Of a stretch of 64,000 nt of DNA, positions 44,765 through 60,496 are shown in pieces. Position 1 is the stretch's first letter, and every line of letters starts with the position of its first letter. The notes below the pieces were generated by a model. That model had not been told where the DNA came from and did not search any database. It saw only the letters and a list, made by a program, of their open reading frames with translations. Position numbers and translations under genes: made by a program. This DNA is from Gemmatimonas sp. (GTDB lineage Bacteria; Gemmatimonadota; Gemmatimonadetes; Gemmatimonadales; Gemmatimonadaceae). The stretch is from NCBI RefSeq assembly GCF_027531815.1, contig NZ_JAPZSK010000006.1:124001-188000 (forward strand), given 5' to 3'.

Positions 44765-45772
44765 TCACGGCGTCACCCGAGGCTCCGCCTCCGACACGCC
44801 GCCGTCGAGGATGGCCTGCAGCGCGCTTTCCCGCGCGGCCGCCTCCTGCAGGGCGTCGGCTGCGCGCATAGCCTCCAGCTTCCGGCGATCGCGGCGCCGG
44901 CGGATCATGAACAGCGGCACGAGCACCAGCGAGAACAGCCCGACGGCAGCGGACACGTTCGTCACGAAGGCGAGGGCGCCGTACCGCGTGCGCGTTTGCG
45001 CGCGCCAGTGCTTCTCAAACGCCTCGCCGGTCATGCCGTAGGCCGTACGAACCGCCCGCTCGAACGAGCCGCTCTGCTTCCAGTACGCAAAGAAGTTGTC
45101 GAGGCCGGCGTCGCCGCCCAGGGCGTCCAGCTCGCTCACCACGCGGTGCGCCATGGCATAGCTCCACGACGCTTCCATTCCGCCACGGACAAATCCACGC
45201 TCGAGGGCCTCGAGCGTGGGCAGGGTACGCCACACCATGCCAAGCGAGGTCTCGAAAGCCTGTTCGCGCGTCCATTCTCCGGCGGCGAAGCTGGCATAGC
45301 CCTCGTCGAACCAGCGTGGCGGCAGCGGCCCCAGCGCCTCGTGCAGCGCGAGATGCGCCAGTTCATGGCGCAGCACCACACGCGGATCACCGGCATCGGA
45401 GCCGGCCCCGCGACCCTGCATGATGATGCGACGCTGGTCGGGGAACGCGAAGGCGGCACCCCATTCCGGCGCGTAGGGTCCGACCCAGGCCCGCAGACGG
45501 GCCGCGTCGGGGGCGATGGCAATGAGTACCTGCTGTCGAGGCCGCGGCAACCCCGGGAACGTGTCGCGGCGCTGCGCCTCGGCGAGCAGCGAGCGGGCCA
45601 GACGCTCGTCCTGCCGCTCGGCCACGATGGTGAAACGACCGGCATCGAGCCGTATGCCAGGGTCACGCGGCGCGCCCTGTGCAACGGCCATGGTGCGGAA
45701 CACGACAGCCGATAGGACCGTCAGGAGCAGGAACGCAGCCACCAGCTGGCGCAACAGGGGAGGCCCGCTCAC
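44765..45772 (-). CDS. Membrane-anchored HExxH (peptidase MA-like) metallopeptidase
   Basis: A 335-residue exported protein. A signal-anchor (residues 8-32) precedes a domain with RHELAHLAL (His136, Glu137, His140) and WFDEGYASF, whose Glu157 fits as third zinc ligand of a gluzincin. A C-terminal helix (about 268-287, VGLFSLVLVPLFMI) with a basic, then acidic cytoplasmic tail follows. The GTG at 45772 overlaps the upstream TPR stop as GTGA; an ATG at 45838 would overlap it by 70 bases. Being last in the chemosensory run, it could process a cell-surface part of the system, but this is inference only. Confidence 0.75.
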   Translation of the reverse strand: MSGPPLLRQLVAAFLLLTVLSAVVFRTMAVAQGAPRDPGIRLDAGRFTIVAERQDERLARSLLAEAQRRDTFPGLPRPRQQVLIAIAPDAARLRAWVGPYAPEWGAAFAFPDQRRIIMQGRGAGSDAGDPRVVLRHELAHLALHEALGPLPPRWFDEGYASFAAGEWTREQAFETSLGMVWRTLPTLEALERGFVRGGMEASWSYAMAHRVVSELDALGGDAGLDNFFAYWKQSGSFERAVRTAYGMTGEAFEKHWRAQTRTRYGALAFVTNVSAAVGLFSLVLVPLFMIRRRRDRRKLEAMRAADALQEAAARESALQAILDGGVSEAEPRVTP

Positions 45773-46683
45773 CCGTCGCGCGGCGGCGTTCCCCCCTGCT
45801 CCACCACGTCCAGCAGCTCCGCGCAGCGTTTCCCCCATGGACTGAACCTGTTTGCCTCGCTTCCGGTTTTCCACGCCAGGCACGCATCGCCATGCCGGCC
45901 AGCGAACCAGTAGCACCTGCCCAGTTCGTACCACGCCTGGAGCAGGTTGGGTCCGCGTTCGAGTGCCGTGCGGAAGAACCCTTCGGCATCGTCGTACATC
46001 TCACGCTCGCGATACGCCATGCCGAGGTACAGATGCGCGTAGAGCACGGCGCGGCGATCGTGATCGGCACGAATGACCGACGTGAGGTGCTCGATGGCCT
46101 CGCCGTAAATCCCCTTGCGCAGGCAAATGTACCCGACGTTCACGTGCGCCAACGGATACTGCGGTTCGCGCTGCAGGACGCCCTGCAGCACCTGCATGGC
46201 CTCGTCATGCGCGTCGCGCAGCATCAACGCCCACGACAGCAGGGTTTCCGCCTCCACATGGCCGGGGGCCAGCTCGAGTGCTCGGCGAAAGGCCGCTTCG
46301 GCGCCCTCGAGTTGGAGCAGCGACAGCCTCGACCACCCCTTCTCGACGAACGTGGAAGCGCCGAGGTGATCGACCCGGGCCGATGCCACGGGCGTTGCCG
46401 CGCGGGTCATGGGGCGTCCGTCGAACTGCTTCCACTGCTCGGCCAGCCGCTTCACCGCTTCCTTGCGCGCACTGGCCCGTTGCAGCGCCGCGTCGGCGTC
46501 ACGGAAGAGGGCAATGATCTGCAGCTTGAGCGCGTCACGTTCGGTCGCGTCCAGCGGGCTCGCCGCGTGGCGCCCGACCGCCTCATCGAGTGCGGCCTGC
46601 AGCTGCTGCAACTGCTCGTCCAGTGCCGCGGCCGTCGGAACCGCGGCCGCAGGATCAGGCGCGGCCGGTGACATTCCGCTCAT
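45769..46683 (-). CDS. TPR protein of the chemosensory cluster
   Basis: A 304-residue soluble protein. The N-terminal 100 residues are helical and charged (DEQLQQLQAALDEAVGRH, then SARKEAVKRLAEQWKQFDG). TPR-type repeats follow (GAEAAFRRALELAPGHVEAE, YGEAIEHLTSVIRADHDRR, YDDAEGFFRTALERGPNLLQ). The ATG at 46683 overlaps the CheW-like gene stop as ATGA. A scaffold for the neighbouring signalling proteins is likely; no enzyme motif is seen. Confidence 0.75.
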   Translation of the reverse strand: MSGMSPAAPDPAAAVPTAAALDEQLQQLQAALDEAVGRHAASPLDATERDALKLQIIALFRDADAALQRASARKEAVKRLAEQWKQFDGRPMTRAATPVASARVDHLGASTFVEKGWSRLSLLQLEGAEAAFRRALELAPGHVEAETLLSWALMLRDAHDEAMQVLQGVLQREPQYPLAHVNVGYICLRKGIYGEAIEHLTSVIRADHDRRAVLYAHLYLGMAYREREMYDDAEGFFRTALERGPNLLQAWYELGRCYWFAGRHGDACLAWKTGSEANRFSPWGKRCAELLDVVEQGGTPPRDG

Positions 46684-47150
46684 GCGGGCCGTGGGCAGCG
46701 GGCGGGATCGATGACCCAGACGGGAGAATCCATGCGAGGGAACATACCGCGAACGGCCGGATGCGCTGGTACTTCCTCCGCGAGCGTCGAGCGCGGCCGC
46801 ACGAGCACCGTGTCCACGGCGACCACGTCGAGCACCGCGTGGACGAGGCCGGCCAGATGCGGCGGTGCCGTGGCATGTGCCCGCAGGATGAGCACCCGAT
46901 CGTCTGGATGGCGGGTGTGGCACCCTTCGGCCTCCTCACCGATGGCGAGGGCGTGCACGGGGAGCATCGTACCGCCGAAGGGGACGAGCGCGGTGGCGGT
47001 GGTGGCACGCTCGACGCGCAGCACGCACTCCACCGGGATGGCCAGACGAAACGGGCCGTGCTGCACGATCACGAAGGTGCTGCGCTCGACGGGTGGTCGG
47101 GCACGATGGCGTGCCGCGGTGGATACGATCGAGCGGAACGTCGTAGTCAC
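46680..47150 (-). CDS. CheW-like domain protein (divergent)
   Basis: A 156-residue protein. RSTFVIVQHGPFRLAIPVEC and VLRVERA, then LVPFGGTMLPVHALAIGE, follow the beta-barrel pattern of CheW, with a second half LAGLVHAVLDVVAVDTVLV. It is shorter and more divergent than the CheW at 60011-60496 and has an Arg/Ala-rich N-terminus. The GTG at 47150 has GAGG 9 bases before it and lies 10 bases after cheB. It could be a second coupling protein or a CheW-fold adaptor for the TPR protein. Confidence 0.65.
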   Translation of the reverse strand: MTTTFRSIVSTAARHRARPPVERSTFVIVQHGPFRLAIPVECVLRVERATTATALVPFGGTMLPVHALAIGEEAEGCHTRHPDDRVLILRAHATAPPHLAGLVHAVLDVVAVDTVLVRPRSTLAEEVPAHPAVRGMFPRMDSPVWVIDPARCPRPA

Positions 47151-47160
47151 GACGGGCGCC

Positions 47161-48300
47161 TCATGCCGATTCCCGCAGCTGCAGGCGACGCTCGAGGACG
47201 TCAACCTGCGCCGCGATCACGGCGGCCAGCTCGTGCAGCGGGGCGACCGCGTCGGCGCCGCCGGCGCGCAGCGCCGCGTCCGGCATCCCCGGCACGACAG
47301 AGGTGGCGCGATCCTGCACGACCACGCGCCCGCCCGCGGCACGAATGGCCCGCGCCCCCTCGGCGGCATCACACCCCATCCCGGTGAGCACCACGGCGAC
47401 CGTCTGGGCGCCGTACACCTGGGCGACCGACTGGAACAGCGGATCGGCGGCGGGGCGTACTCCCCATTGCGCCGGATCGTCACCCAACAGCAGGCGCGGC
47501 ACTTCGCGCGGCCCGTGCAACCGCACATGCCGCCCGCCCGGCGCGATGTAGGCGTGCCCGGCCCGCAGCGGTTCGTTGTCTCCGGCTTCGTGTACCGTGA
47601 GCGCCGACGCGGCGTCGAGACGCCTCGCCAAGCTGGCGGTGAAGCCCGGTGGCATGTGCTGCACCACGAGCACCGCCGTGTCGGGCCACGCGGGCAAGGC
47701 CGGGAGCAGTTGCGAGAGCGCCGCCGGTCCGCCGGTCGAGGCCGCAATGCACACCACCCGCGAGGGGGCACCAGCCAGCGGCAGTTGCAGCGGCACCGCG
47801 CGCGGCGGCACCGGCAACTGTCCCGACGTCAGCACCGGGTGCGCGGCCACCTGCACATCGACGCTGGCGCGCAGCGCCTGCAGCAGATGCTCGCGCACCA
47901 CGTCGAGGTCCAGGCTGATGGCCCCCGACGGCTTGCGCACGAAATCCACGGCCCCCCGTTCGAGGGCGCGCAGCGTGGCGTCGGCGCCGCTGTCGGTACC
48001 GCCGCCACTCAGCATCACCACCGGGCGTGGATGATCGCGCATGATGAACTCCAGCGCCGCCAGGCCATTCAACGCGGGCATGTCCACGTCGAGCGTGACG
48101 ATATCGGGGTCGAGTACCGCGACTTGCCGCAAGGCTTCTTTACCGTCCCGGGCCGTGCCGACCACGGTGAACTCGCCAGTGGACTCCACCACTTCACTGA
48201 CCAGCTTCCGCATGAAGGCGCTGTCGTCCACCACGAGCACCCGCGTCGGTCGCGTGCCCGGCGGGCCCGAGGTGCCGACCGGCTGGTCAGAGCTCGACAT
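47161..48300 (-). CDS. cheB: Chemotaxis methylesterase CheB
   Basis: Response regulator with receptor glutamate methylesterase/deamidase activity. It has 379 residues. The receiver domain (about 19-135) has VLVVDDSAFMR and the phospho-acceptor in TLDVDMP (Asp71), with KP at 123-124. The esterase domain has CIAASTGGPAAL (Ser188), VVQHMPPGF (His215) and GMGCDAAEGA (Asp311), the catalytic triad. The ATG at 48300 overlaps cheD by 14 bases. No cheR or receptor gene is in the window. Confidence 0.95.
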   Translation of the reverse strand: MSSSDQPVGTSGPPGTRPTRVLVVDDSAFMRKLVSEVVESTGEFTVVGTARDGKEALRQVAVLDPDIVTLDVDMPALNGLAALEFIMRDHPRPVVMLSGGGTDSGADATLRALERGAVDFVRKPSGAISLDLDVVREHLLQALRASVDVQVAAHPVLTSGQLPVPPRAVPLQLPLAGAPSRVVCIAASTGGPAALSQLLPALPAWPDTAVLVVQHMPPGFTASLARRLDAASALTVHEAGDNEPLRAGHAYIAPGGRHVRLHGPREVPRLLLGDDPAQWGVRPAADPLFQSVAQVYGAQTVAVVLTGMGCDAAEGARAIRAAGGRVVVQDRATSVVPGMPDAALRAGGADAVAPLHELAAVIAAQVDVLERRLQLRESA

Positions 48301-48778
48301 CGTCGCCCCGCACGCTGCGCACGACGATGCGGCCGGTGGCCACGTCGAAGGTGAGCGAACGCCCCATGGAGCCACCCACCGCTTCCCCCACGATGGGGAC
48401 GTCGTGCGCGGCGCATGCCTGACGCGCCGCCTTCACATTGCGCACGCCGAGTCCTACGGCCCCGGCGGGAAGGAGCGCGCCGAACATGGAGGCACCGCCA
48501 ATGAGCCGCGCATTGATCTCGCCGCGGGCGCCGCAGGCACGCATGCGCTCCAGCATGGCGGGCACGGCGGTAAACGGAAACTTGCCGGGTCGCGGGGGCC
48601 GGGATGACAGAGCCGCATGCGGCAGGAGCACATGCGCCAGCGCCCCCACCCTTTCGGTGGCGTCGTACAGGGCCACCGCCACACAGCTCCCCAGCCCTGT
48701 CGTGACGAGGGTGAGCTCGCCCTGCCCCACTTCGATCTCGGCGATGCCGACCATGACGGGCGCCGCGAGCACGCTCAT
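48287..48778 (-). CDS. cheD: Chemoreceptor glutamine deamidase CheD
   Basis: Deamidates receptor glutamines and binds CheC, stimulating its phosphatase. It is 163 residues with TTGLGSCVAVALYD (Cys32), GALAHVLLP (His49) and KFPFTAVPAML, then IGGASMFG, in the order known for the family, so catalytically complete. It overlaps the PATAN-TPR gene as ATGA and cheB by 14 bases. Presence with CheC (56909-57697) fits a CheC-CheD feedback pair. Confidence 0.95.
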   Translation of the reverse strand: MSVLAAPVMVGIAEIEVGQGELTLVTTGLGSCVAVALYDATERVGALAHVLLPHAALSSRPPRPGKFPFTAVPAMLERMRACGARGEINARLIGGASMFGALLPAGAVGLGVRNVKAARQACAAHDVPIVGEAVGGSMGRSLTFDVATGRIVVRSVRGDDVEL

Positions 48779-50475
48779 GCGTCCGCCCCCAGCACGGCCA
48801 GCGCCTCATCGTGCGCGACGGGACGCGTGGCGGACGACTCGGGAAAGACCTGGTCGGCTGCCGGCAGCATGGCTGCCAGATTCGCCATGACGATGCGATT
48901 GCCGGGATCGAGCACCAGCGCCTGCTCCCACGCCTCACGGGCGTCGTCGAGTGCCCCACGCCGGTAGTGAATGTTCCCCAGCTTGAGGTAGACATCGGGG
49001 CCGTGCCACGGCGCGAGGCGCACCACCCGCACGAACGCGTCGAACGCCTCGTCGTAGCGCTGCGCGCGATAGAGATAATCGCCCAGGTTCTTGTGCAGGT
49101 GCGGACAGTTGGCGTCCTCCAGCAGCGCGTGTTCGAGCGTCCGCGCGGCCAGTTCGTAGCTGCCGCGCCGCTCGTGTATCACCGCAAGGTTGTTGTGCAG
49201 CGGCACGGCGTGCGGGTACACCGCCAACCCTTCCTCGAGCACGGCAACCGCCCGGCGACTGTCGCCGGCGAGTGCCGCGGCCAGACCGGCACTGTGGAAC
49301 CACGCGGCCGATGGCTGGCGCGCGCCCCACTGGGCGCGCGCGGTCGCCAGCAACGCCTCGGCGGCAGCGAGATCACCGTCGCGAAGCGCCATGTCGGCCC
49401 GCGACAGGGCGAGCCGCGGGTCGGGGAGCGACCCGGCACGTCGCGCGGCCTCGTCGAGGGCGCGCGATGCGCCCTCGCGGTCGCCGGTCTGTTCGAGAGC
49501 GAAGGCCAAGTTGTGCAGCACCGCCGACGGTGCCTCCGGCTCCTGGGCCGCCCGCGCGAAGGTGGACGCCGCGTCGGCCCAGGCTCCGCGGCGGGCGTGC
49601 ACCAGCCCCAGGTGAAAGCGGGCGATGCCATCGGACTCGCGCAGCTCGAGGACGCGGCGCAATTCGCGCGACGCCTCGTCCAGCATGCCGGTGCGATAGA
49701 ACGCGATGCCGAGGTTGCGATGCTCGGCCACGCGGCTCTCCGGGGGCGGCTGGCGGTGGGCCGCACTGCGCCCAACCCGCCGCGCGTAGCCCGTCGTCAC
49801 GAGTCCGTACAGTGCCTTGCCCACATCGAACTCGCTCAGTCCGGAGCGTTCGATGAGCGCGTGGACGTCGTTCGTCCCGTCGAGCAGCTCGGCAATGCGC
49901 TCCTGTACCGACGAGAGCGAGACGTCGCGCGCGCTGACGCGCGAGCCGTCGGCCTCGAAGATGAGGTCGAAGGACGGGATCTTCTTTTCAATGACCGACC
50001 ATTCGTCGATCCGGCGCGCCCCTTCCAGCAGCAGCGCGTCCGCACTGATGGAGAAGAGCGGCGCATCGAGCGAGAGGTCGCCATCGGACTCGAAGGTGAA
50101 GGTACCCTGCGTCCAGCCAAAGAGGTGGTACACCACTTCCTCGACCTGCGCCCGGAACACCTGCACCAGCAGGTCATGATCCACCAGCTCGCTGGCGAGC
50201 AGCGCCCTGGCCAGATCGCGGTCGTCCTGGAGCTGCAACTGGGCGGCGAGCCGCGCGAGTTCGTCAGCGGCAACGGCCCCGAGGCGCACGAGCCGATCGC
50301 CCAGCCGGTCGCGCCGATTGACGATGGAGGCGTGCACCACGCGCCCGTCGGCGAAGTGAACGGCGCCGAAGCTGCCATCGCGCGCGATGCTCAGGCACCC
50401 CGTCTTCTGCCCCAACGAGAGGAGCTGCAGGACATCGGCGAGACTGGCCTCGCTCAAGTTGCCGCGAATGGCCAT
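48775..50475 (-). CDS. PATAN (DUF4388) domain plus TPR protein
   Basis: A 566-residue soluble protein. The N-terminal PATAN/DUF4388 domain (about 1-240) starts GNLSEASLADVLQLLSLGQK, with VEEVVYHLFGWTQGTFTF. The C-terminal 320 residues are TPR-type repeats (HRNLGIAFYRTGMLDEASRE, HKNLGDYLYRAQRYDEAFDA). PATAN domains occur in cyanobacterial PatA-type regulators of gliding or twitching motility (family knowledge). The ATG at 50475 overlaps the DnaA-like stop as TAATG and has GAGGAG 8 bases upstream. It is probably an adaptor that ties the GTPase/ATPase pair to the Che proteins (inference). Confidence 0.85.
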   Translation of the reverse strand: MAIRGNLSEASLADVLQLLSLGQKTGCLSIARDGSFGAVHFADGRVVHASIVNRRDRLGDRLVRLGAVAADELARLAAQLQLQDDRDLARALLASELVDHDLLVQVFRAQVEEVVYHLFGWTQGTFTFESDGDLSLDAPLFSISADALLLEGARRIDEWSVIEKKIPSFDLIFEADGSRVSARDVSLSSVQERIAELLDGTNDVHALIERSGLSEFDVGKALYGLVTTGYARRVGRSAAHRQPPPESRVAEHRNLGIAFYRTGMLDEASRELRRVLELRESDGIARFHLGLVHARRGAWADAASTFARAAQEPEAPSAVLHNLAFALEQTGDREGASRALDEAARRAGSLPDPRLALSRADMALRDGDLAAAEALLATARAQWGARQPSAAWFHSAGLAAALAGDSRRAVAVLEEGLAVYPHAVPLHNNLAVIHERRGSYELAARTLEHALLEDANCPHLHKNLGDYLYRAQRYDEAFDAFVRVVRLAPWHGPDVYLKLGNIHYRRGALDDAREAWEQALVLDPGNRIVMANLAAMLPAADQVFPESSATRPVAHDEALAVLGADA

Positions 50476-52214
50476 TACCGGTACTCCTCAATGAGGCGAC
50501 CGCCGAGCTCTGGCCAGCGCCACATGGTCTTTTCCCGGTCTTCGAAGAACCGGTCGCGCTCTCCGGGTTCGAGACCGGCCAGCTGCTCGAGGCGCAGTCG
50601 CTCGCGCGCCGCGAGCAAGATCACGAGCCCGCCTTCGAAACGCGACCGCAGCCGGTCCGCCAGCCCGAGCATTTCCTTGGGCGGGCGAGAGCTCGTGAGC
50701 ACGACCTGCGCCCCGCGGCCCACGAGCAGGTTGAACAGATGGAACAGCTCGTCCTGTGTGCGTTCCTTTCCTTCCAGCTCCTGCACATCGTCGAGAATGA
50801 GCACATCGGCTTGGCGGTAGCGCACCCGCCAACGCTCCACCCCGCCCTCCTGCATCGCGGCGATGTATTCCTCGACGAACTGGCGAGCCGGCAGGCAGGC
50901 GACCTGCTTGCCTGGCCACTGCGCTTTCACCGCGTTGCCGATGGCGTGCGCGCAGTGGGTCTTGCCACTGCCGGCAGGTCCGTGCAGGAGGAGCGGATTG
51001 TAGCCGGCGCCCGGCGCGTCGATGACCGCATCAATGGCGCGTACGGCCAGCTGATTCTCGGCTCCCACCTGAAGGGCGGCCCGGGTGAATCCCGGTGACG
51101 GCGGCGGCAGCGGCAGCGCGGTATCGATGGTGTACTGCAGTAGCTGCTCGGCAGCCGGAATGGCCTCCACATTACGGAAGGCACCATGGCCACGCAGTGC
51201 CGGATCAATGGCGACCGCGTGCACCTCAAGGCCACGCAGATGGTCCACGGCGGCGGCATAGGCGCGCAGCAATCCGTCGGCATCGATGGCTTGGGGCGAT
51301 TGCAGTGCCCGCTCGAGGACCCTCACGTTCCAGCCGTCGACGCGGTAGGCGCCAATGGCCTCGCCAATGCGCACGCGCCAGGGTTCGACACGCGTCTCCA
51401 CCTCCGTCAGCACATCGGCAAGGAAGCCTTCGTAGTCCGTGCCGCTGGGAATGATGGCCCGAATGCGCTCGGGGGTGGGCGGGGCCGAAGGTGCGGCATG
51501 GACGCCGAGAACCGCACGCACCTCGTCGGAGGCCACCGGTCGGCCATCGAGCTGCTGGTATGCCGTGAGCTTGTTCAGCGCTCCCTTGAGTTCCCGCACG
51601 TTGCCGAACGGGAGGCGCGCCACCTCGTCGAGCACCCCATCGGCGAAGGAGTCGGCGCGGTCGGCCACGACATTGCGCAGAATGGCGAGGCGCAGTTCGA
51701 AGTCGGGCGCCCCCACATCCACCACGAGGCCGCCTGACAGTCGCGAGAGGAGTCGCTGGTCGACATCGGGGATCTCCGATGGCTGGCGATCGCTCGTGAG
51801 AACGAGTTGCTGGCCGGCGCTGAGCAACACGCTGAGCAGCCGCAGCAGTTCACTCTGCGTCTCCCGCTGGCCGGTCAGGAACTGGACATCATCGAGGATG
51901 AACAGGTCCGCCTGGGAAAAGGGCTCGAGAAACTGCTGCGGCTGTCCCGATGCCACCGCGCGGTGCAGCAGTTCGGCGACTTCTTCGCCCGACGAGAAGC
52001 GCACACGGACCGCCGGCTGCACCTCGCGGGTGCGATGGGCGATGGCCGCCACGAGATGCGTCTTGCCGAGCCCCGACCCACCATAGATGAAGAGCGGGTT
52101 GTAGGCCTGCCCGGGGGCGTCGGCCACTGCGCGTGCCGCCGAGACGGCCAATCGGTTCGAGGCGCCCACCACAAACGTGTCGAATCGCAGGGAGCGATCC
52201 ATGCTGCCGGTCAC
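50475..52214 (-). CDS. Tandem DnaA-type AAA+ ATPase without DNA-binding domain
   Basis: A 579-residue protein with two AAA+ modules of DnaA type. Module 1 has NPLFIYGGSGLGKTHL (Walker A 45-52), LFILDDVQFLTGQRETQSEL (Walker B 104-110), sensor 1 LVLTSDR, RLLSRLSGGLV (Arg-finger region) and the lid/sensor 2 GNVRELKGALNKL (204-216). A linker of about 135 residues follows. Module 2 has NPLLLHGPAGSGKTH (412-419), VLILDDVQELEGKERTQDEL (471-477), VVLTSSR and RLRSRFEGGLV, then stops without a lid. The DnaA helix-turn-helix domain IV is absent. Start GTG at 52214 overlaps the GTPase stop as GTGA. Both ATP sites look intact. It is not the replication initiator; a partner-binding or assembly ATPase is likelier. 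Confidence 0.9.
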   Translation of the reverse strand: MTGSMDRSLRFDTFVVGASNRLAVSAARAVADAPGQAYNPLFIYGGSGLGKTHLVAAIAHRTREVQPAVRVRFSSGEEVAELLHRAVASGQPQQFLEPFSQADLFILDDVQFLTGQRETQSELLRLLSVLLSAGQQLVLTSDRQPSEIPDVDQRLLSRLSGGLVVDVGAPDFELRLAILRNVVADRADSFADGVLDEVARLPFGNVRELKGALNKLTAYQQLDGRPVASDEVRAVLGVHAAPSAPPTPERIRAIIPSGTDYEGFLADVLTEVETRVEPWRVRIGEAIGAYRVDGWNVRVLERALQSPQAIDADGLLRAYAAAVDHLRGLEVHAVAIDPALRGHGAFRNVEAIPAAEQLLQYTIDTALPLPPPSPGFTRAALQVGAENQLAVRAIDAVIDAPGAGYNPLLLHGPAGSGKTHCAHAIGNAVKAQWPGKQVACLPARQFVEEYIAAMQEGGVERWRVRYRQADVLILDDVQELEGKERTQDELFHLFNLLVGRGAQVVLTSSRPPKEMLGLADRLRSRFEGGLVILLAARERLRLEQLAGLEPGERDRFFEDREKTMWRWPELGGRLIEEYR

Positions 52215-52915
52215 GCGGCGACACCAGCACCGGTCAGGACACCCTGCCCCGTCGGGGCGTCCAGTGCGGGCGCATACACGGGCGTGCGCAAGGCGGCGTT
52301 GGCCCGCCGCCCGGCCACGGTTCCGTCTTCAGCGCCCAGCCGCCGCAACACGGTGCGGCCCAGCGCCCGCAGCGTGTCGAAAACGCCCACGCCGTTCAGC
52401 GCATCGGCCGCGTATTCGGGGACGACGCGGAAGTTGAGCGCCGCCGACAGCTCGGCGACACTGGCCGCGAGCGAGGGTGGCAGGTCCTGCTTGTTGTACT
52501 GCAGCACGATCGGCAGCGCCCGGGCGTCCACCCCGTGTTCGGCCAGATTCGCGTGCATGTCCTGCAGGCTCTCGAAGTTGTCGTCCCACCGGTGCCGCTG
52601 ACTGTCGGCCACGAACGCCACGCCGTCGGCGCCCTGCAGTACCAGCTGCCTGATGGCCTTGTAGTACGGCTGGCCGGGCACGGTGTACAACTGGAAGCGC
52701 ACCTTGTACGCGCCCACGGTGCCAAGGTCTACCGGCAGGTAATCGAAAAAGAGGGTGCGATCACGACGCGTGGCAAGCGACGTGAGCGATCCCACCTGCC
52801 CGCTCGGCAAGGCCGAATGCAGATAGGTGAGATTTGTCGTCTTTCCCGACCGACCGGGGCCGTAATAGACCAGCTTGCAGGTGATCAGCCGCGTGGCGTG
52901 ATCGACAATGGGCAT
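52211..52915 (-). CDS. mglA: MglA-like small Ras-family GTPase
   Basis: A 234-residue GTPase close to Myxococcus MglA, which sets the leading cell pole in gliding and twitching motility. Switch and nucleotide motifs are VYYGPGRSGKTTNL (P-loop 19-26), RRDRTLFFDYLPVDLG, QLYTVPGQ (78-82), FVADSQRHR and QYNKQDLP (141-144). The Arg at 53 and the Gln at 82 match, by position, the intrinsic arginine finger and catalytic glutamine of Myxococcus MglA. A C-terminal tail of about 35 residues, Ala/Gly/Pro-rich, is extra. No roadblock (MglB) GAP gene is nearby. The ATG at 52915 follows a structured 83-base gap, and the stop overlaps the DnaA-like gene. Confidence 0.92.
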   Translation of the reverse strand: MPIVDHATRLITCKLVYYGPGRSGKTTNLTYLHSALPSGQVGSLTSLATRRDRTLFFDYLPVDLGTVGAYKVRFQLYTVPGQPYYKAIRQLVLQGADGVAFVADSQRHRWDDNFESLQDMHANLAEHGVDARALPIVLQYNKQDLPPSLAASVAELSAALNFRVVPEYAADALNGVGVFDTLRALGRTVLRRLGAEDGTVAGRRANAALRTPVYAPALDAPTGQGVLTGAGVAA

Positions 52916-52940
52916 GCGCCCGCTCCTCTTCCTCGCCGCA

Positions 52941-53003
52941 CGCCGGTGTAGGCACCGGCGCGTCCTCTCCGTAGACGGTACGCCGTCGCGCCCGTACCCT
53001 ACG
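52941..53003 (-). promoter_or_regulatory. Two hairpins in the gap before mglA
   Basis: In the 83 bases between the PATAN gene stop and mglA, minus-strand RNA can form two adjacent hairpins. One pairs 52993-53003 with 52970-52982 (11 bp plus a 2-base bulge, 10-base loop) and covers the PATAN stop codon. The other pairs cgccggtg (52941-52948) with caccggcg (52953-52960) around a 4-base loop. No T-run follows, so processing or stabilisation is likelier than termination. Confidence 0.55.
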
Positions 53004-54147
53004 GGTGCAACAGCGCGTGCAATCGAGCGGCCAGCCCGATGGCCTCACGCACCTGATCGGCGTTGGGCGGCGGTACCGGCGACCGCAGGGCGGCATTCCA
53101 GTGCGCCACCGCACCACGCAGATCCCCGGTCCGCGCCAGCGCATCTCCCTGCTGGCACAACACATGGCCGATCTGCCCGTCGGTGGGCACCGGAGCGCCG
53201 TCCGGCGGCTGCTCTTGTGGGAAGGACGGTTCAACGGGCGCTGGCGCAACCGCCGCCGACGTCATGCCGCTGCCCTGCCAGGGGGCGGGGGCAAGCGGCA
53301 GCCCGTCGGTGCTGAGAACGCCATGCGCCACCGGGTCGAAGAGCGAGTCCTCGTCCGGTTCCGCGGGCCCCACGATCGCCGTGTAGGAGCCCGATGGCAC
53401 CCAGAGTTCCGCGGCAACCGGCCCGGGGAGCGGCACCGCCGCGGTGGAGGTCGGCGGTGAGGAGCCCGGCGGAGCGGACGGCAGTTCGGCGGTGGTAGGG
53501 ATGCTCGCCATCGCGGGCGGCGTGGGATTGCGCCGCGGCGCGGCCTGTCCCTCGCGCAACGTGAGCAGCCCGGCCCCCAGCAGGTCGTGCACGAGGAGGG
53601 CCACATCAGTGACATCCCGCTGCATGGCGGCGGCGAGCGACATGAGGTCGCGCTGGCCATCGACACGCGTGAGGATGTCCCATTGCGGCGGCGTCAGGCG
53701 CAGCAACGGCAGCTGATGTGGCTCCACCTCGACGAATGCCGGGATGACACGCGCATGCGGCACCCGGGCCTCGATGTGCTGCCACACCTCGGCGCGCATG
53801 GCGGCGTCCATGAGCAGCGGCTCCACCGTGAGGCGCACCGCGCTGGGGTGCAGGGGCCGTTGGGCGGGCGCGAAGCGGAAGGTCCCGTCGCGCCAGAGCA
53901 GCACATCCTGCACGGCCGCTTCCATGGCCGCGCGATCGCTCTCCCGGCGCCGCGGCGCGGCCAGCTCGTGCACGCGGTCGGCTCCCACCACCTCGGCATC
54001 CACGATCGCCCCGGCCTCGAAGGCCAGCTGCGCGCGGCGCCCCTGCAGCGGCGCGTCGCAATGCAGCACACCGGTCTTTCGCCCCAGGGCCAGCAGTTGC
54101 AGGACCTCGGTCAGTGCCAGATCACGGAGCCGTCCTTCGAGAGCCAT
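52999..54147 (-). CDS. PATAN (DUF4388) domain protein
   Basis: A 382-residue soluble protein. The N-terminal domain starts MALEGRLRDLALTEVLQLLA and continues GRKTGVLHC, closely matching the start of the PATAN-TPR protein at 50475. DVLLWRDGTFRFAPAQRPL matches its second half. A winged-helix-like piece follows (LTRVDGQRDLMSLAAAM), then a Pro/Ser/Thr-rich linker of about 110 residues and a short TPR-like end (CQQGDALARTGDLRGAVAHW). The ATG at 54147 lies 8 bases after the large TPR gene. Role inferred as an adaptor for MglA or the Che array. Confidence 0.83.
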   Translation of the reverse strand: MALEGRLRDLALTEVLQLLALGRKTGVLHCDAPLQGRRAQLAFEAGAIVDAEVVGADRVHELAAPRRRESDRAAMEAAVQDVLLWRDGTFRFAPAQRPLHPSAVRLTVEPLLMDAAMRAEVWQHIEARVPHARVIPAFVEVEPHQLPLLRLTPPQWDILTRVDGQRDLMSLAAAMQRDVTDVALLVHDLLGAGLLTLREGQAAPRRNPTPPAMASIPTTAELPSAPPGSSPPTSTAAVPLPGPVAAELWVPSGSYTAIVGPAEPDEDSLFDPVAHGVLSTDGLPLAPAPWQGSGMTSAAVAPAPVEPSFPQEQPPDGAPVPTDGQIGHVLCQQGDALARTGDLRGAVAHWNAALRSPVPPPNADQVREAIGLAARLHALLHP

Positions 54148-54155
54148 ATGCCGCC

Positions 54156-56891
54156 TCAGGCCACGTGCGCAGTGATGGCCGACGCCGCCGGGGACGCGAT
54201 ATGCCGCGCCATTCCGCCAGGCCATGTCTCATCGAAGATGCATACGTCGACCGCTTCGGTGTCGGCCGCCGCATCGCCGTGGGGAAAGCGCGCGACCGCC
54301 GCGCGCGCGCGACTGCTCCAGGGCTCCGCGTCGGTGCGCCGCGAGAGGCGGCTCCAACGATCCACCGCATCGCGCAGCCGGGACTGTGCGGCGAGCAGCA
54401 CGCCATCCATCCAGATGGCCTGGGGATGGTCAGCGTCGTGGCGCAGCACCCGATTCACCGCTACGCGCGCATCGGTGTGCCGTTCCTCGGCCAACAGCAC
54501 CTCGGCCAGCAATGCGAGCGCGTCGAGGTCGGTGGGTATGGCCATGAGGTGTTCCACCAGTACCGACCGCGCGTCTGGGAGACGGCGTGCGTCGCGATGT
54601 ACGCGTGCCAGCTCGACGACGGCGTCGGGCCAGCCGGGCGCGGCGGCGAGCGCCGCCACCAGCTCGAGACGTGCGGCAAGCAGATCGCCGCGGTCACGCA
54701 GCAGACGTGCGATCGCCACCCGTGGTGTGGGGCGCATGGGGTCGTGCGCGAGCGCGCGACGATAAAAGCCGAGCGCGAGCGGTTCGTCACGCAGACGCAC
54801 CGACACATCACCAGCGTAATGCAAAAGCGCCGGACTGGCCACGTCGCGCCGCAGCACGCGAAGCAGCGCGCTCCGTGCTTCGTCGCGATAGGCCGTATCG
54901 TCGTATGCCGTGAGGGAGGCCGCCAGCAGCACGAGGACGTCGACGCTGTCGTTCACCTGGCGCGACAGACGGCGCAGCAATGACAGTGCGCCCGCCTCGC
55001 GACGCAGCAGACACTCGGAGCGTGCCTCCCCCAGCGCGGCGCGTATCCAGAGCGCGCGCCAGACGGCGCGCTCATCCGACGACGCCGATGCCTCGGCCGC
55101 GTCTGCATCGGGGGCGAGGGCCGTCTCCAGCAGGTCACGCGCCGCGCGATAGCGCTCCACCGCTTCGCCGTGCAGGATACGCACGGCATAGTCGTCGGCC
55201 GCTTCGCAGTGACGACGGGCACGTTCGCCCACCGGCGGCAGCGCGGGCGTGTGGTGCGGCCGTTCCGGGAGCAGCGCGTCGACCTCGCGGTCGCCGATCG
55301 CCACGCCCACCAGCGGCGTGCCGCCCACCAGGCTCAGCAGATCCACCGGGCCCACGGCGTCGGGGCACTCGCGCTGCAGATCGATTCCCACCGTGAGGCG
55401 GTCCTCCTTGTGCACCGACGCCCCAGCGAGCGCGCGCTGGGTTTCGCGCACGGCGCCGTCGCCGTCGCCAAGTTGCTCGAGTACCCGGGCCAGGGCGTAG
55501 CGCGCCTCGGCGTGCGCCGGGCGCGCCTCGATGGCCTTGACCAAGGCAGCACGTGCCTCCTCGAGGCGTGCCGTTTGCGCCAGCACGCGCCCCAGCACAT
55601 GCCACACCTCGGCCTCCTGTGGGTGGAACTCGGCCAGCTCGCGCAGCAGCGACAGGGCGGCCACGGCATCGTCGTGCCGGACGTACCAGCGCGCAAGGTT
55701 GAGCTGAGCCAGCACCAGGGTGGGGTCGAGCTCGGCCGCGCGCAGGAAGGCCTCGCGCGCGGCCTGCGTATCGCCACGGTCGGCGAGCGCCACGCCGAGA
55801 TTGTTGTAGGCGAGGGCGTGGCGAGGATCAATACGCAGGGCCCGGCGATAGCTGTCGGCCGCACCGGCGACCTCACCGGCCTGATGCAGGGCCACGCCGT
55901 GCTCGTTCCACCCCCGCGCCGTTTCTTCCATGCCCAGCAACAGCTCGTACCGCGCACGAGCCGATGCCGAGTCGCCATCGAGCAGGTCCAGTTCGGCGAG
56001 GGCGTGTTGTACGAGTCGCACATCCTCGCCCTGGGCCAGGGCCCGTACGAATTCCACGCGCGCCTCGCGGAAGTACCCACGCTGCCGAAAAGCGAGGCCC
56101 AAGCCGTGGCGCGCGAGCGCTCCGTTGGGTTCGACGGTCATCACCCCGGCGGCGGCGGTGTCGTGATGCGCTGCCGTAGCCTCGATGACGAGATCCCCCT
56201 GCAGCGCTTCCAGCGCCGGATTGAGCTGCGCCGCACGGCGTGCGGCTTCGATAGCCGCCTCGTGATTGCCCATGTCCCCCAGCACGAACCCACGCAGCAG
56301 GTGCGCGTCAGCCTGGTCGGGGTATTCGCGCACCAGCGCCTCGAGACCAGCGAGCGCCTGTTCGTATTGCCCGCGCTGGTACAGCACCTCGGCCAGGTGG
56401 AGCCGGGCGTTGCCCACCGCTCCGGCATTGACGGCCCGCGCGAACCATCGCTGTGCCCGCCGGAGGTCGCCGGCACGCTGCTCGACGAGGCCGCGCTCGA
56501 ACAGCGCCTCGGCGTCGTCGGGATCCTCGGCGATCAGCGCATCGAGCTGGTGCACGGCCGCGTCGGTACGCCCCAGGAGGCGCACGAGCTGAGCCCGTTC
56601 ACGCAATGCCGCGCGGTCAGCGGGGTTGGCGGCGATGCGTGCCTCCACGACGGCGAGTCGCGCATCACATGCTCCCGGTTGCCTCGCAGCAATCTCGAGA
56701 TTGCGCGCAGCGGCGCGCATGCGCGGATCGAGCTCCAGCGCCCGGAGAAACGCGTCCACCGCTTCCGCGTGGAGCCCGCGGGTGTGGTACAGCACACCGA
56801 GGTTGTTGAACGCCCCCGGATCCTGCTGATCGATGCGATCAGCGAGGGCGCGCAAGAGACCGGTGTGGGAACCGGCTGGATTCGCCTGCAT
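54156..56891 (-). CDS. Large TPR-repeat protein of the chemosensory cluster
   Basis: A 911-residue soluble protein made mostly of TPR-type repeats. Clear copies are NLGVLYHTRGLHAEAVDAFL, YNNLGVALADRGDTQAAREA and VWHVLGRVLAQTARLEEARA. Around residues 500-570 a non-repeat stretch (VDLLSLVGGTPLVGVAIGDR) interrupts, then helical repeats resume to a short unrelated tail. The ATG at 56891 is 17 bases after cheC; the stop is 8 bases before the PATAN gene. A large interaction platform for the module is the natural reading; nothing in it looks catalytic. Confidence 0.8.
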   Translation of the reverse strand: MQANPAGSHTGLLRALADRIDQQDPGAFNNLGVLYHTRGLHAEAVDAFLRALELDPRMRAAARNLEIAARQPGACDARLAVVEARIAANPADRAALRERAQLVRLLGRTDAAVHQLDALIAEDPDDAEALFERGLVEQRAGDLRRAQRWFARAVNAGAVGNARLHLAEVLYQRGQYEQALAGLEALVREYPDQADAHLLRGFVLGDMGNHEAAIEAARRAAQLNPALEALQGDLVIEATAAHHDTAAAGVMTVEPNGALARHGLGLAFRQRGYFREARVEFVRALAQGEDVRLVQHALAELDLLDGDSASARARYELLLGMEETARGWNEHGVALHQAGEVAGAADSYRRALRIDPRHALAYNNLGVALADRGDTQAAREAFLRAAELDPTLVLAQLNLARWYVRHDDAVAALSLLRELAEFHPQEAEVWHVLGRVLAQTARLEEARAALVKAIEARPAHAEARYALARVLEQLGDGDGAVRETQRALAGASVHKEDRLTVGIDLQRECPDAVGPVDLLSLVGGTPLVGVAIGDREVDALLPERPHHTPALPPVGERARRHCEAADDYAVRILHGEAVERYRAARDLLETALAPDADAAEASASSDERAVWRALWIRAALGEARSECLLRREAGALSLLRRLSRQVNDSVDVLVLLAASLTAYDDTAYRDEARSALLRVLRRDVASPALLHYAGDVSVRLRDEPLALGFYRRALAHDPMRPTPRVAIARLLRDRGDLLAARLELVAALAAAPGWPDAVVELARVHRDARRLPDARSVLVEHLMAIPTDLDALALLAEVLLAEERHTDARVAVNRVLRHDADHPQAIWMDGVLLAAQSRLRDAVDRWSRLSRRTDAEPWSSRARAAVARFPHGDAAADTEAVDVCIFDETWPGGMARHIASPAASAITAHVA

Positions 56892-56908: not shown

Positions 56909-57697
56909 TCAGGCCAGGCGAATGGCGCGCAACATGACCTGCAGCGACGCCGGGTCGGGCAGCAGGAGGAAGTATCCGCGCAGCGTGAGATCGGCCTCGC
57001 GCAGCAGGAACTCACTCTCCACGCACAGCACCGAATCGGGATCGGGAGCGAATTCGCCGGCGGCGGTGGAAAGCACCGCCGCCGACATGTCGATCACGAG
57101 GGTGGGCGGCGACGGCAACAGCAGCATGCCGAGAAAATCGCTGAGGGCATTCATGTAGGCCCCGCTGAGGATGTTCCCCGTTTCCTTGATGGCCGATGAC
57201 TCGAGCGCACTGAACGCGACGGAACTTCCCACGGGCCGCCGCAACATGAGCTCCGCCAACCGCATGACGGTAGGCTTGGGGAACACCAGCAACGTGCGTC
57301 CCGACAGATCGCCGAGCATGTGCATCATGACGGCCGCCACGGGCTCCTCGTGCGGCGACACCTGGGCGGGCAGTTCCTCCAGGCTCGCGAGGCAGATGGC
57401 GGGCACCTTGATCATGATGGTGCTACCGGTCATTTGCGAGAGGGCGGTGGCGGCGTGGCCAGCACCGATGTTCGCGATTTCCCGCAGCGCATCGAGCTGG
57501 ATGCTCTTGAGGGGGTGGACCGGGGGAGCGGGTCGCGGCGCCGACGACGCGGTACCGCCACGGGGCATTGCCGTGGTCACGGCGCGCCCTGCGGACGCCG
57601 GCGCAACGGCTGACCCGTCGGCGCGCGCGTGGCTGATGTCGTTGTGCTGCATGATCACGTCCGCCATGAATGAGACATCCCCGTTCGCCACCGTCAC
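56909..57697 (-). CDS. cheC: CheC-type CheY-P phosphatase
   Basis: Dephosphorylates CheY-P. It has 262 residues: a Pro/Ala-rich N-terminal segment of about 60, then the CheC fold. Both phosphatase signatures are present: DALREIANIGAG (Glu73, Asn76) and IKETGNILSGAYMNAL (Glu172, Asn175), so both active sites look complete. The GTG at 57697 overlaps the cheA TGA as GTGA; an ATG at 57667 is an alternative. The long N-terminal segment is unusual for CheC. It probably works with CheD (48287-48778). Confidence 0.9.
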   Translation of the reverse strand: MTVANGDVSFMADVIMQHNDISHARADGSAVAPASAGRAVTTAMPRGGTASSAPRPAPPVHPLKSIQLDALREIANIGAGHAATALSQMTGSTIMIKVPAICLASLEELPAQVSPHEEPVAAVMMHMLGDLSGRTLLVFPKPTVMRLAELMLRRPVGSSVAFSALESSAIKETGNILSGAYMNALSDFLGMLLLPSPPTLVIDMSAAVLSTAAGEFAPDPDSVLCVESEFLLREADLTLRGYFLLLPDPASLQVMLRAIRLA

Positions 57698-59634
57698 ACG
57701 ACGCTCGGCACATCGATGATGAGTGCCGGGCTGCCGTCGCCAAGCACGGTGGCACCGCTGAACCACGGTGCCGCTCCGTGCACCACGTCGAGCGGTTTGA
57801 CCACGATGTCCTGCTGGGCGACCAGTGTGTCGACCAGCAGCGCTGCGCGGCGACCGCCAGCGTCGACGATGGCGAGATGACGATCGCCCGCCGCGTCATC
57901 GTGGCGTTCGAGGGTGGACGACCGAGTGAGCCCGAAGAGTTCATCGAGCGCCACCAGCGGAACGAGGTCGTCACGAATGGTGACGGCGGGGCGCTCTGTG
58001 TGATGCACCCGCAGGGATTCGTGATACTCCGTGGCCTCGCTGACGTGGATCGCGGGGAGGGCGAAGGTGCATCCGGCCACCTCCACGAGCAGCGCGCGTG
58101 TGATGGTCAGCGAGACCGGCAGGCGTAGCGTGACCACCGTTCCGGTGCCCTCGATGGTCTCGAGCTCGAGCTGCCCACCCAGAGCGCGCACACGCGTGTT
58201 CACGACATCCACGCCCACGCCGCGTCCCGACAGGGTCGTCACGCGGCGCGCCGTGGAGAAGCCGGGATGCGCAATGATCCGCAGCAACGCGTCGTCGTCC
58301 AGCTGCTGTACCTCAGCCGCGACGAGCCCCTGCGCTCTCGCGCGCTCCAGCACCGCGTGTCGGTCGATCCCGCGTCCGTCATCCTGCACCTGAATGATCA
58401 CGCTGGCGCGATCGCGCACCGCGCGCAGCGTGAGCTCACCACGCGCCGCCTTGCCGACCGCCACTCGCCCGGCCGCGTCTTCGATGCCGTGATCGAGCGC
58501 ATTCCGCAGCAGGTGCAGCAGGGGATCGCCGATGGCCTCCAGCAGCGACCGATCGATCTCGATGTCCCGCCCTTCCATGGTGAAGGCCACCTCCTTGCCC
58601 AATTCGTGACTCACGTCGCGAACCAGGCGGGGAAAGCGGTCGAACACCTGCCCTACGGGCAGCAGACGCGCCTGCAGCACTTCGTCCTGGAGTGTGCTCA
58701 CGAGGCGCGCGGCGTCACGCGCAGCGCGCAACACGTCGCGATCGGGGTGGTCGAGGGCCTCGATGGCGCGCAGGAGGCGATCACGGGTGATGACCAGCTC
58801 CCCGGCAAGATCCAGCAGCGTGTCGAGGCGCCGGGGGTCGATGCGCACGGTTCGTGTCGTCGCCGGCGCGACCGCACGGACCCGCTGCTGGACCGCTTGT
58901 GTGGCTCCAGCCGGCACACGCACATAGACCTGTGCCACATCGCCGGCGGCGCGCACCGCCTGCTCGAGCGCCTCATCGGTGACGTTGCTGGCCAGGACGA
59001 CGCGAAAGCGGCCGTCGAACGTCTCGTCCTGCCAGCGCGGCTGCTCGGGATGCGTGCCGCGGATCTGCCCGAGTGTACCGAGCTTGGTCAGGACCAGCAT
59101 GGCGCGCACGCCCTTGAGCGGGCAATCGTCCACGAGATGCACGTCGAGGTGGCGAATCGTGGCGGCGGCGGCACCGTCGACCGCCGGCCCCGGCACTGGC
59201 AGCGCGTCCTTCGTGGTGTCGGATGCCAGCGGCGTCGACACCGGCGGGCGGAGTCGCACGAGCAGGCTCCCAACCATCGCGGGCGCCGTTTCTCCCCCGC
59301 ACACCACATCGGCAATCGCGGCGCGCAGCACGTCGGTGCCCTCGAAGAGCAAGGCCAGCAGCTCCGCGTGCACCGCCTCATCTCCACGTCGCACCGGCTC
59401 GCATCGCGATTCGAGGGCATGCGCGACGCGTTCGACGGTGCCATAGCCCATCGAGCCGGCCATGCCCTTGATCGTGTGCATCCCGCGAAAGAGCGTAGCC
59501 ACCAGCTCGCTCGTGTCGAGCGGGCTCGCCGCGGTGCGTCCAGCCTCCTCGAGCGCCAGCAGCGTCGCGTCGAGCTCCGCCAGATGTTCGCGCGCTTCGG
59601 CCTGAAAGAGGGCCGCATAGCGCGCCGTGTCCAT
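57694..59634 (-). CDS. cheA: Chemotaxis histidine kinase CheA
   Basis: Autophosphorylating kinase of the array. It has 646 residues: one HPt domain with MHTIKGMAG (His53), a second alpha/beta domain (about 163-258, HLDVHLVDDCPLKGVRAML) in the place of the CheY-binding P2, the dimerisation helices (LDTLLDLAGELVITRDRLL), the ATP domain (LLHLLRNALDHGIE, QDDGRGID, LSGRGVGVDVV) and a C-terminal CheW-like domain. No receiver is attached. The ATG at 59634 gives a standard HPt start; it lies 14 bases after cheY. Confidence 0.96.
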   Translation of the reverse strand: MDTARYAALFQAEAREHLAELDATLLALEEAGRTAASPLDTSELVATLFRGMHTIKGMAGSMGYGTVERVAHALESRCEPVRRGDEAVHAELLALLFEGTDVLRAAIADVVCGGETAPAMVGSLLVRLRPPVSTPLASDTTKDALPVPGPAVDGAAAATIRHLDVHLVDDCPLKGVRAMLVLTKLGTLGQIRGTHPEQPRWQDETFDGRFRVVLASNVTDEALEQAVRAAGDVAQVYVRVPAGATQAVQQRVRAVAPATTRTVRIDPRRLDTLLDLAGELVITRDRLLRAIEALDHPDRDVLRAARDAARLVSTLQDEVLQARLLPVGQVFDRFPRLVRDVSHELGKEVAFTMEGRDIEIDRSLLEAIGDPLLHLLRNALDHGIEDAAGRVAVGKAARGELTLRAVRDRASVIIQVQDDGRGIDRHAVLERARAQGLVAAEVQQLDDDALLRIIAHPGFSTARRVTTLSGRGVGVDVVNTRVRALGGQLELETIEGTGTVVTLRLPVSLTITRALLVEVAGCTFALPAIHVSEATEYHESLRVHHTERPAVTIRDDLVPLVALDELFGLTRSSTLERHDDAAGDRHLAIVDAGGRRAALLVDTLVAQQDIVVKPLDVVHGAAPWFSGATVLGDGSPALIIDVPSVV

Positions 59635-59648
59635 CAGGATGCTCCGGG

Positions 59649-60014
59649 TCAGGCGGCGAGTACGCGGTTCACCGCTTCCAGCACCCGACTGGGCTGGAAC
59701 GGCTTGACCACGAAGTCCTTCGCGCCTGCCTGGATGGCCTCCACCACGAGCGCCTGCTGGCCCATGGCGCTGCACATGAGGATGCGGGCGTGCGGATCGT
59801 GCGAGGTGATCTCACGCACGGCATCGATGCCCCCCATGTCGGGCATCACGATGTCCATGGTGACGAGATCCGGGCGCAGGTGCTTGTACTTCTCCACGGC
59901 CTGGACACCGGTTTCGGCTTCGCCGACCACCTCGAATCCTGCCTGGGTGAGGATGTCCCCCACCATGGTGCGCATGAAGATCGCGTCGTCGCAGATCAGT
60001 ACCGTCTTGCTCAC
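59649..60014 (-). CDS. cheY: CheY-type response regulator
   Basis: A stand-alone receiver of 121 residues with CDD (9-10 acidic pair), the phospho-acceptor in VTMDIVMPDM (Asp54), LMCSAMG (Ser) and DFVVKPFQ (Lys). It lacks any output domain, so it acts through binding a target. The start is GTG at 60014, overlapping cheW as GTGA. Confidence 0.96.
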   Translation of the reverse strand: MSKTVLICDDAIFMRTMVGDILTQAGFEVVGEAETGVQAVEKYKHLRPDLVTMDIVMPDMGGIDAVREITSHDPHARILMCSAMGQQALVVEAIQAGAKDFVVKPFQPSRVLEAVNRVLAA

Positions 60015-60496
60015 CGTGTTCTCTCCTCGGCTGAATGCAGATGCCGCGCACAGAGCGCGACCGCGTCCAGGACGGTGGCGCCAGCGGGTCCGTCCGGATC
60101 TTCCGGCGCGGCCGTGCGAACATCCAGGACACGATCCACGGCAAGCCCGATCGGCCGGGCGCCGTACTGGAGGAGGACGATCGACCCCGGTGTAACGGCA
60201 CGCTCTCCGGTTCGGAGCGCCTGCAGGTCCAGCACGGTGACGATGGCGCCCCGCACGTTCACGATGCCCGCCTGCAGCGGCGGAGTGCCTGGCACGGGAC
60301 GGACCCCGCCGGGGCGTACGACTTCACGTACCTGGGTCACGGGGATGCCGAAGACCGCCTCTCCGGAGGTCACGACCAGCCACTGCGGCCGGGCCTCTTC
60401 CACGCGCTCCACGCCCTCCACGCCCTCCACGGCGTCAGTCGGCGGTGTGTCGGGCAGCGGGGGGGTCGTCGGTGGTCCGATAGAATCCGAAGACAT
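60011..60496 (-). CDS. cheW: Chemotaxis coupling protein CheW
   Basis: Links receptors to CheA. It is 161 residues from the ATG at 60496, which has AGGA 8 bases upstream. The CheW fold runs WLVVTSGEAVFGIPVTQVRE, VPGTPPLQAGIVNVRGAIV and LQYGARPIGLAVDRVLDV. The N-terminal tail contains VEGVEGVERVEE, coded by a repeated 9-base unit. The ATG start overlaps rluD by 62 bases; GTG codons at 60430 and below, right after the rluD stop, are rival starts. Confidence 0.9.
   Translation of the reverse strand: MSSDSIGPPTTPPLPDTPPTDAVEGVEGVERVEEARPQWLVVTSGEAVFGIPVTQVREVVRPGGVRPVPGTPPLQAGIVNVRGAIVTVLDLQALRTGERAVTPGSIVLLQYGARPIGLAVDRVLDVRTAAPEDPDGPAGATVLDAVALCARHLHSAEERTR

Follow-up and report, generated by a model that had tools for sequence, protein, structure and literature searches.

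What acts on an MglA GTPase that has kept its catalytic residues but no longer has mglB beside it? The question is raised by a gene of Gemmatimonas, here termed mglA-2, in the 64-kb stretch of DNA analyzed in this study (C6:124001-188000; referred to as the window). In an alignment with Myxococcus MglA (5ymx; E = 2.3e-63), MglA-2 was gapless through about residue 145. R53 and Q82 were thereby aligned with R53 and Q82 of the Myxococcus protein, as the preliminary description of this DNA had claimed. The Group 1 MglA features, as defined by Wuichet and Søgaard-Andersen (PMC4316618) and used here, were all intact: the P-loop (GPGRSGKT), an Arg beside the G2 Thr (R53-T54), the G3 motif TVPGQ and a G4 motif of the form [NT]KxD (NKQD). 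By these motifs, MglA-2 is a Group 1 type MglA GTPase, with predicted GTP binding and hydrolysis. The open reading frame is conserved far beyond chance, since MglA-2 was present in 84 of 108 family genomes (cut at E < 1e-60). Almost all close relatives among the genome contigs carry a Gemmatimonadota label.

MglA-2 is a permanent member of a chemosensory cluster found across the class. On the minus strand, the genes follow the order CheW, likely CheY, CheA, CheC, TPR, PATAN, MglA-2, tandem DnaA-like ATPase, PATAN/TPR, CheB, TPR (Table 1). The DnaA-like ATPase gene, correctly named earlier as the neighbor of mglA-2, overlaps the end of the latter by 4 nt. The only DUF4388 matches in the genome were the two PATAN proteins of the cluster; six T2SSE-type ATPases above the cut-off and one FliM were also found. 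The ATPase passed the NCBI DnaA equivalog TIGR00362 (424.8 bits versus a cut-off of 343.9, two stretches summed), yet it is encoded in a chemosensory cluster and probably is not the replication initiator, so that the name dnaA may be wrong for such genes. No DnaA-like ATPase was found at the MglA-2 loci L079 and L081/L144/L145, and the protein may therefore be dispensable for keeping MglA-2.

Table 1. Features of the chemosensory cluster around mglA-2 (positions within the window)
Position	Strand	Feature	Remark
45769..46923	-	TPR protein of the conserved cluster	
47161..48375	-	CheB, receiver plus methylesterase	
48775..50475	-	Downstream (second) PATAN protein with TPRs, 566 aa	Long PATAN form kept
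50475..52214	-	Tandem DnaA-like AAA ATPase, 579 aa	Two Bac_DnaA-type domains
52211..52915	-	MglA-2, Group 1 type MglA GTPase by its motifs, 234 aa	Lineage-specific tail from about residue 196
52916..52998	-	Gap of 83 nt, PATAN stop to mglA-2 start	Relatives hold three roadblock genes here
52999..54147	-	Upstream PATAN (DUF4388) protein, winged helix and C-terminal helices, about 382 aa from conserved start MALEG	Without the ~38-aa segment of relatives
54156..56891	-	TPR protein, 911 aa	
56909..57766	-	CheC-like phosphatase	
57694..59775	-	CheA kinase	Real start probably internal
59649..60014	-	121-aa ORF, likely CheY by position	Relatives' ORFs at the same place match the CheB receiver part
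60011..60496	-	CheW	

A search of the whole genome with the PF03259 profile revealed two roadblock genes (C6:539200-539463 and C6:31958-32218), both outside the window, and none inside its 64 kb. The earlier statement that mglB is missing beside MglA-2 was thus borne out: no roadblock gene lies within four genes of MglA-2, which is therefore an orphan MglA and not part of a coupled MglA/MglB module. The genome-wide search, which had been proposed as a check, also showed that a normal mglB exists elsewhere, in an operon with another MglA, which goes partly against the preliminary interpretation. This gene, mglB-1 (C6:539200-539463), is located 12 nt upstream of a second, canonical mglA (encoding MglA-1, 57% identical to MglA-2 over 161 aa) and 360 kb from MglA-2. 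The same pair was present at 41 of 41 loci looked at outside genus g12.

In relatives, genes for a TPR-roadblock protein, a roadblock protein (about 120 aa) and an MglB-like protein (about 157 aa) lie between PATAN and MglA-2; in a Pfam check on examples, the MglB-like ORF scored 19 bits, below the cut-off of 23. The full triplet was found at 19 of the 20 loci that represent other families of the class (the remaining one, L162, is interrupted by a contig end). Among the 20 loci representing other genera of the family, 15 had it, and the others held two of the three genes (L070) or none (L072, L075, L076, and L081). The triplet was wholly missing in Gemmatimonas and its nearest genera, and no roadblock gene was found beside MglA-2 in any Gemmatimonas-clade locus examined. 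Counted by genome, cluster MglB (E < 1e-30) was present in 55 of the 84 family genomes with MglA-2 and missing in 29 (16 of Gemmatimonas g1; 3 each of g9, g12, and g26; 2 of g28; 1 each of g8 and g27). A tree of five cluster proteins required at least three changes in roadblock state; this was a quick tree that includes MglA itself, places g12 on 10% of the columns, and omits 22 short, truncated or duplicate loci. Given the triplet in the outgroups, we read these changes as losses. The orphan state of MglA-2 is hence a loss and not an original lack, with three separate losses as the shortest history, a point which the preliminary description had missed. The Gemmatimonas lineage lost its cluster roadblocks without moving them elsewhere.

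A partial state was seen at L070 (g28), which keeps the TPR-roadblock and roadblock genes and is missing the MglB-like gene; the tree placed it as sister of g26, which lost all three. Three g12 genomes (L141, L142, and L143; 96-99% completeness) held both MglA-1 and MglA-2, and no roadblock was detected in them (best score, 13.9 bits); the MglA-2 neighborhoods seen in g12 were also without Che genes and the DnaA-like gene. Three g25 genomes (G083, G087, and G090) were small, with one MglA match and no roadblock above the cut-off, and four g29 genomes (G101, G104, G105, and G106) held cluster MglB without MglA-2 at E < 1e-60.

The catalytic machinery did not follow the roadblocks. R53, Q82, K25, and N141-K142 occurred in every row, whether roadblock-bearing (37 of 37) or orphan (40 of 40), and T54 was present in 39 of the 40 orphan rows. 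Gly21 occurred in 37 of these (exceptions: L018, L027, and L088, the last a duplicate of L027), so that a GTP lock via residue 21, as in Bdellovibrio, is not general.

Elsewhere in the protein, 20 of 117 otherwise conserved MglA-2 positions had switched in the clade of Gemmatimonas and g9. This count and those given below for the cluster proteins refer to the nonduplicate set, which omits L083, L084, L088-L091, and L151, and row numbers vary by protein, as some loci are without a given protein. With duplicates kept (32 rows, 25 distinct), the count was 19 of 114; the regional comparison and the MglA-1 count below come from this larger set. Among the changes were N5D, E10L, F59Y, I67V, S68G, G69A, F70Y, T72V, V83P, and T88I. 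At positions 5, 10, 59, 67, 69, 70, 72, and 83, Myxococcus MglA, MglA-1 and roadblock-bearing MglA-2 share one residue, from which the orphans depart. In the Myxococcus complex, F56, F57, and F59 of MglA are described as facing MglB, and L64, I67, K181, and K185 as meeting the MglB C-terminal helix (PMC6785124); MglB residues 2-7 are described as pairing with beta0 of MglA (PMC11016934). Judged by the alignment, many of the switched positions fall on these known MglB-contact elements. Residues 44-90 together with 183, 186, and 187 contained 11 switched of 38 positions versus 8 of 76 elsewhere, a region that was set after seeing the list (P = 0.017 with all roadblock-bearing rows; P = 0.088 with family rows only).

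One neighbor changed along with the GTPase. On the Gemmatimonas branch, the upstream PATAN protein had switched at 14 of 61 conserved columns and the downstream PATAN protein at 6 of 87, and the counts were low for the rest of the cluster (CheC, 2/54; CheA, 2/95; CheB, 1/94; DnaA-like ATPase, 1/48) and for the canonical pair (MglA-1, 5/166; MglB-1, 2/84). A second count of the cluster proteins gave almost identical values. In Fisher tests with the Che and DnaA-like counts pooled for comparison, MglA-2 gave 1.7e-7 and the upstream PATAN protein 9e-8. Across nine roadblock-bearing control clades, MglA-2 had 0, 0, 0, 1, 5, 0, 2, 3, and 2 switches, and PATAN had 0 to 9 (highest, 9/72 in f6). The upstream PATAN protein moreover lost ~38 aa in the Gemmatimonas clade: the spacing of two motifs was 56-65 residues in all measurable proteins of this clade versus 99-102 in roadblock-bearing loci and g26. 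In the downstream PATAN protein, the spacing was 97-98 except at L079 (45). These counts indicated a joint change of MglA-2 and the upstream PATAN protein, after the roadblocks had gone, in which the remaining cluster proteins did not take part. Since all of this co-change lies on one branch, it represents one event and is not replicated.

In the related orphan pair g8/g27, MglA-2 had switched at 10 of 117 positions and the downstream PATAN protein at 16 of 86 (one row). In g26, which also lost its roadblocks, only 4 of 117 MglA-2 and 2 of 63 upstream PATAN positions had switched. MglA-1 of g12, which has no MglB-1 upstream, had 8 switched positions, none of them within residues 44-90, and kept its switch regions. 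The g26 and g12 results indicated that roadblock loss by itself does not change the surface, and the latter that MglB is not the only constraint on the interface residues. The preliminary description had named the PATAN proteins as first candidates for a GAP or effector role. The joint rebuilding supports the upstream one in this place, making it by co-change the best candidate partner of MglA-2; a GAP role is putative. The suggestion that the Ala/Gly/Pro-rich tail of MglA-2 may be a docking tag fared less well. An ALRTP-like motif was common to 17 of 24 complete, nonduplicate Gemmatimonas-clade proteins (counted by eye), but complete, nonduplicate orphan proteins range from 203 to 262 aa with tail ends unlike one another, several close orphans have a different tail or none, and 3 of the 24 end at 203-205 aa. 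A conserved docking tail is weakly supported because of this variability.

Could the upstream PATAN protein resemble a known GTPase activator? Comparison of PATAN with roadblock profiles revealed no sequence similarity (hhalign probability 0.1; shallow alignments). The PATAN profile retrieved one unrelated chain (E = 1.2) and no NPRL match from PDB sequences. In a structure search with the full-length model, C-terminal TPR-like helices dominated, and no roadblock chain was among the matches listed for the full-length model or for that of residues 1-204 (mean pLDDT, 87.6). The best five Foldseek rows for residues 1-204 were all GATOR1 or SEAC chains, which we took as NPRL/Npr subunits from entry titles and chain lengths, with none at E ≤ 0.001; the best alignment spanned 249 columns at an rmsd of 17.7 (E = 2.8e-3), and VIA rows fell mainly on residues 125-204. 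By VIA, residues 124-201 matched NPRL/Npr chains with Z of 8.6-10.2 (73-76 residues; rmsd, 2.5-3.0), compared to about 7.4 for MarR-type winged helices and ≤7.7 for most unrelated winged helices, exceptions among unrelated chains being the methyltransferase 8hkr_A (9.1) and 8jj9_A (8.2). As in NPRL proteins, a winged helix follows the N-lobe in the model. For NPRL/Npr subunits in GATOR1/SEAC, both a longin domain and the catalytic arginine are described as lying in the N-lobe (PMC9646525), and longin domains are regarded as relatives of roadblock domains (PMC3521125). That the upstream PATAN protein might be a non-roadblock MglA activator with a longin-like domain and a winged helix, arranged as in the GATOR1 NPRL subunits and replacing the lost three-roadblock complex, nevertheless strikes us as unlikely in this specific form.

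Three other explanations of the orphan state had to be weighed. MglB-1 of the canonical mglBA operon might serve both MglA proteins in trans, the lost local roadblocks having been redundant. The wide presence of the mglBA pair agrees with this, as do F56, F57, and L64, which MglA-2 of the window keeps, and its Arg residues at 183 and 187, which align with Myxococcus Lys181 and Lys185, both described as MglB contacts (PMC6785124). However, M, R and V are the commonest residues at 187 in the clade, MglB-1 hardly changed on the Gemmatimonas branch, and convergence of MglA-2 on MglA-1 was not seen, as only one of its ten switches within 44-90 (to Leu at 44) brought it into agreement with MglA-1. 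In addition, g12 keeps MglA-2 though no roadblock was found there. We regard service by MglB-1 as possible but doubtful. The second genomic roadblock, C6:31958, is the only one in the genome not tied to another MglA and could in principle be a relocated partner of MglA-2. It adjoins a nucleotidyltransferase gene, though, and has orthologues of its own in each of the 13 relatives checked (87.7-179.3 bits), including genera that keep the cluster roadblocks, while matching the cluster roadblock weakly (28 bits); we rejected it as a separate orthogroup, and such a relocation is highly improbable. A lone roadblock gene near a nucleotidyltransferase gene, with its own orthologues in other genera, was seen at L032 (7944-8297).

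Alternatively, MglA-2 may need no GAP at all and either switch slowly or stay mostly GTP-bound, a mode of action put forward for the lone MglA of Bdellovibrio. There, mglB was lost and MglA is reported to have kept its control of pili and predation, which a TPR protein mediates (PMC3983030); persistence of both MglAs in g12 fits as well. Yet Bdellovibrio MglA has Ser21 where Gly prevails in the orphans, R53 and Q82 would be needless for a switch that never hydrolyzes, and Myxococcus MglA alone is described as having negligible activity (PMC6785124), all of which makes a GAP-free switch quite improbable. MglB is described as working by moving the Arg53 loop and not by lending a residue (PMC6876712). 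Together with the fixed R53 and Q82 and the negligible activity of lone Myxococcus MglA, this suggests that something still drives hydrolysis.

The reading that we prefer, and whose chances as a whole we put at about even, is that MglA-2 still cycles after the loss of the roadblocks and that the upstream PATAN protein is the main partner reading the former roadblock surface. The ancestral MglA-2 was encoded beside three roadblock genes, which then disappeared in the Gemmatimonas lineage. MglA-2 would have continued to cycle between GTP and GDP, and the upstream PATAN protein would now be the main reader of the surface once held by the roadblocks. It would be either an effector or an activator of non-roadblock type, the latter driving the R53 loop into the active site. 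Through the MglA-2/PATAN pair, a polar or pilus machinery would receive the chemosensory signals. Myxococcus MglA is reported to use the TPR protein SgmX to act on type IV pili (PMC11580455), and, by analogy only, the TPR proteins of the cluster are candidate effectors.

MglA-2 shares fold, intrinsic Arg finger, TVPGQ, NKxD and catalytic Gln with the Group 1 MglA/MglB systems of Myxococcus xanthus and Thermus thermophilus. It differs in having no adjacent roadblock, in its changed beta2-beta3 and switch 2 residues, and in its place inside a chemosensory cluster. Since a lone MglA after mglB loss is known from Bdellovibrio bacteriovorus, the kind of case is not new: there, too, mglB was lost from an ancestrally roadblock-bearing neighborhood with TPR partners. 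In contrast to MglA-2, which has Gly21, a second mglBA operon and a co-changed PATAN neighbor, Bdellovibrio MglA is described as having Ser21 and no mglB in the genome (PMC3983030). Proximity to PATAN genes has likewise been described for some Group 1 and 5 MglA genes, as an occasional feature (PMC4316618), whereas here PATAN and MglA-2 belong to a fixed cluster whose three roadblock genes were lost. Compared with NPRL2/NPRL3 (Npr2/Npr3) of GATOR1/SEAC, the GAP for Rag GTPases, the likeness of PATAN lies in the winged-helix part of the predicted model (124-201), with neither a sequence match nor an identified catalytic Arg. In the literature searched, which covered few subscription papers, the three-roadblock ancestor, its repeated loss and the PATAN co-change were not described, and a search for Gemmatimonas and MglA returned one unrelated paper. 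The stand-alone MglA GAPs described there were all roadblock proteins, and RomY is reported only to boost MglB (PMC9481161).

In the Gemmatimonas lineage, the roadblocks vanished, the catalytic machinery stayed, and one named neighbor changed with the GTPase. The question of whether a protein other than a roadblock can switch MglA off can thereby be put to a two-protein experiment in which roadblock-bearing relatives serve as controls. If the upstream PATAN protein were indeed an activator of the NPRL-like kind, it would be a bacterial parallel to the system that controls Rag GTPases.
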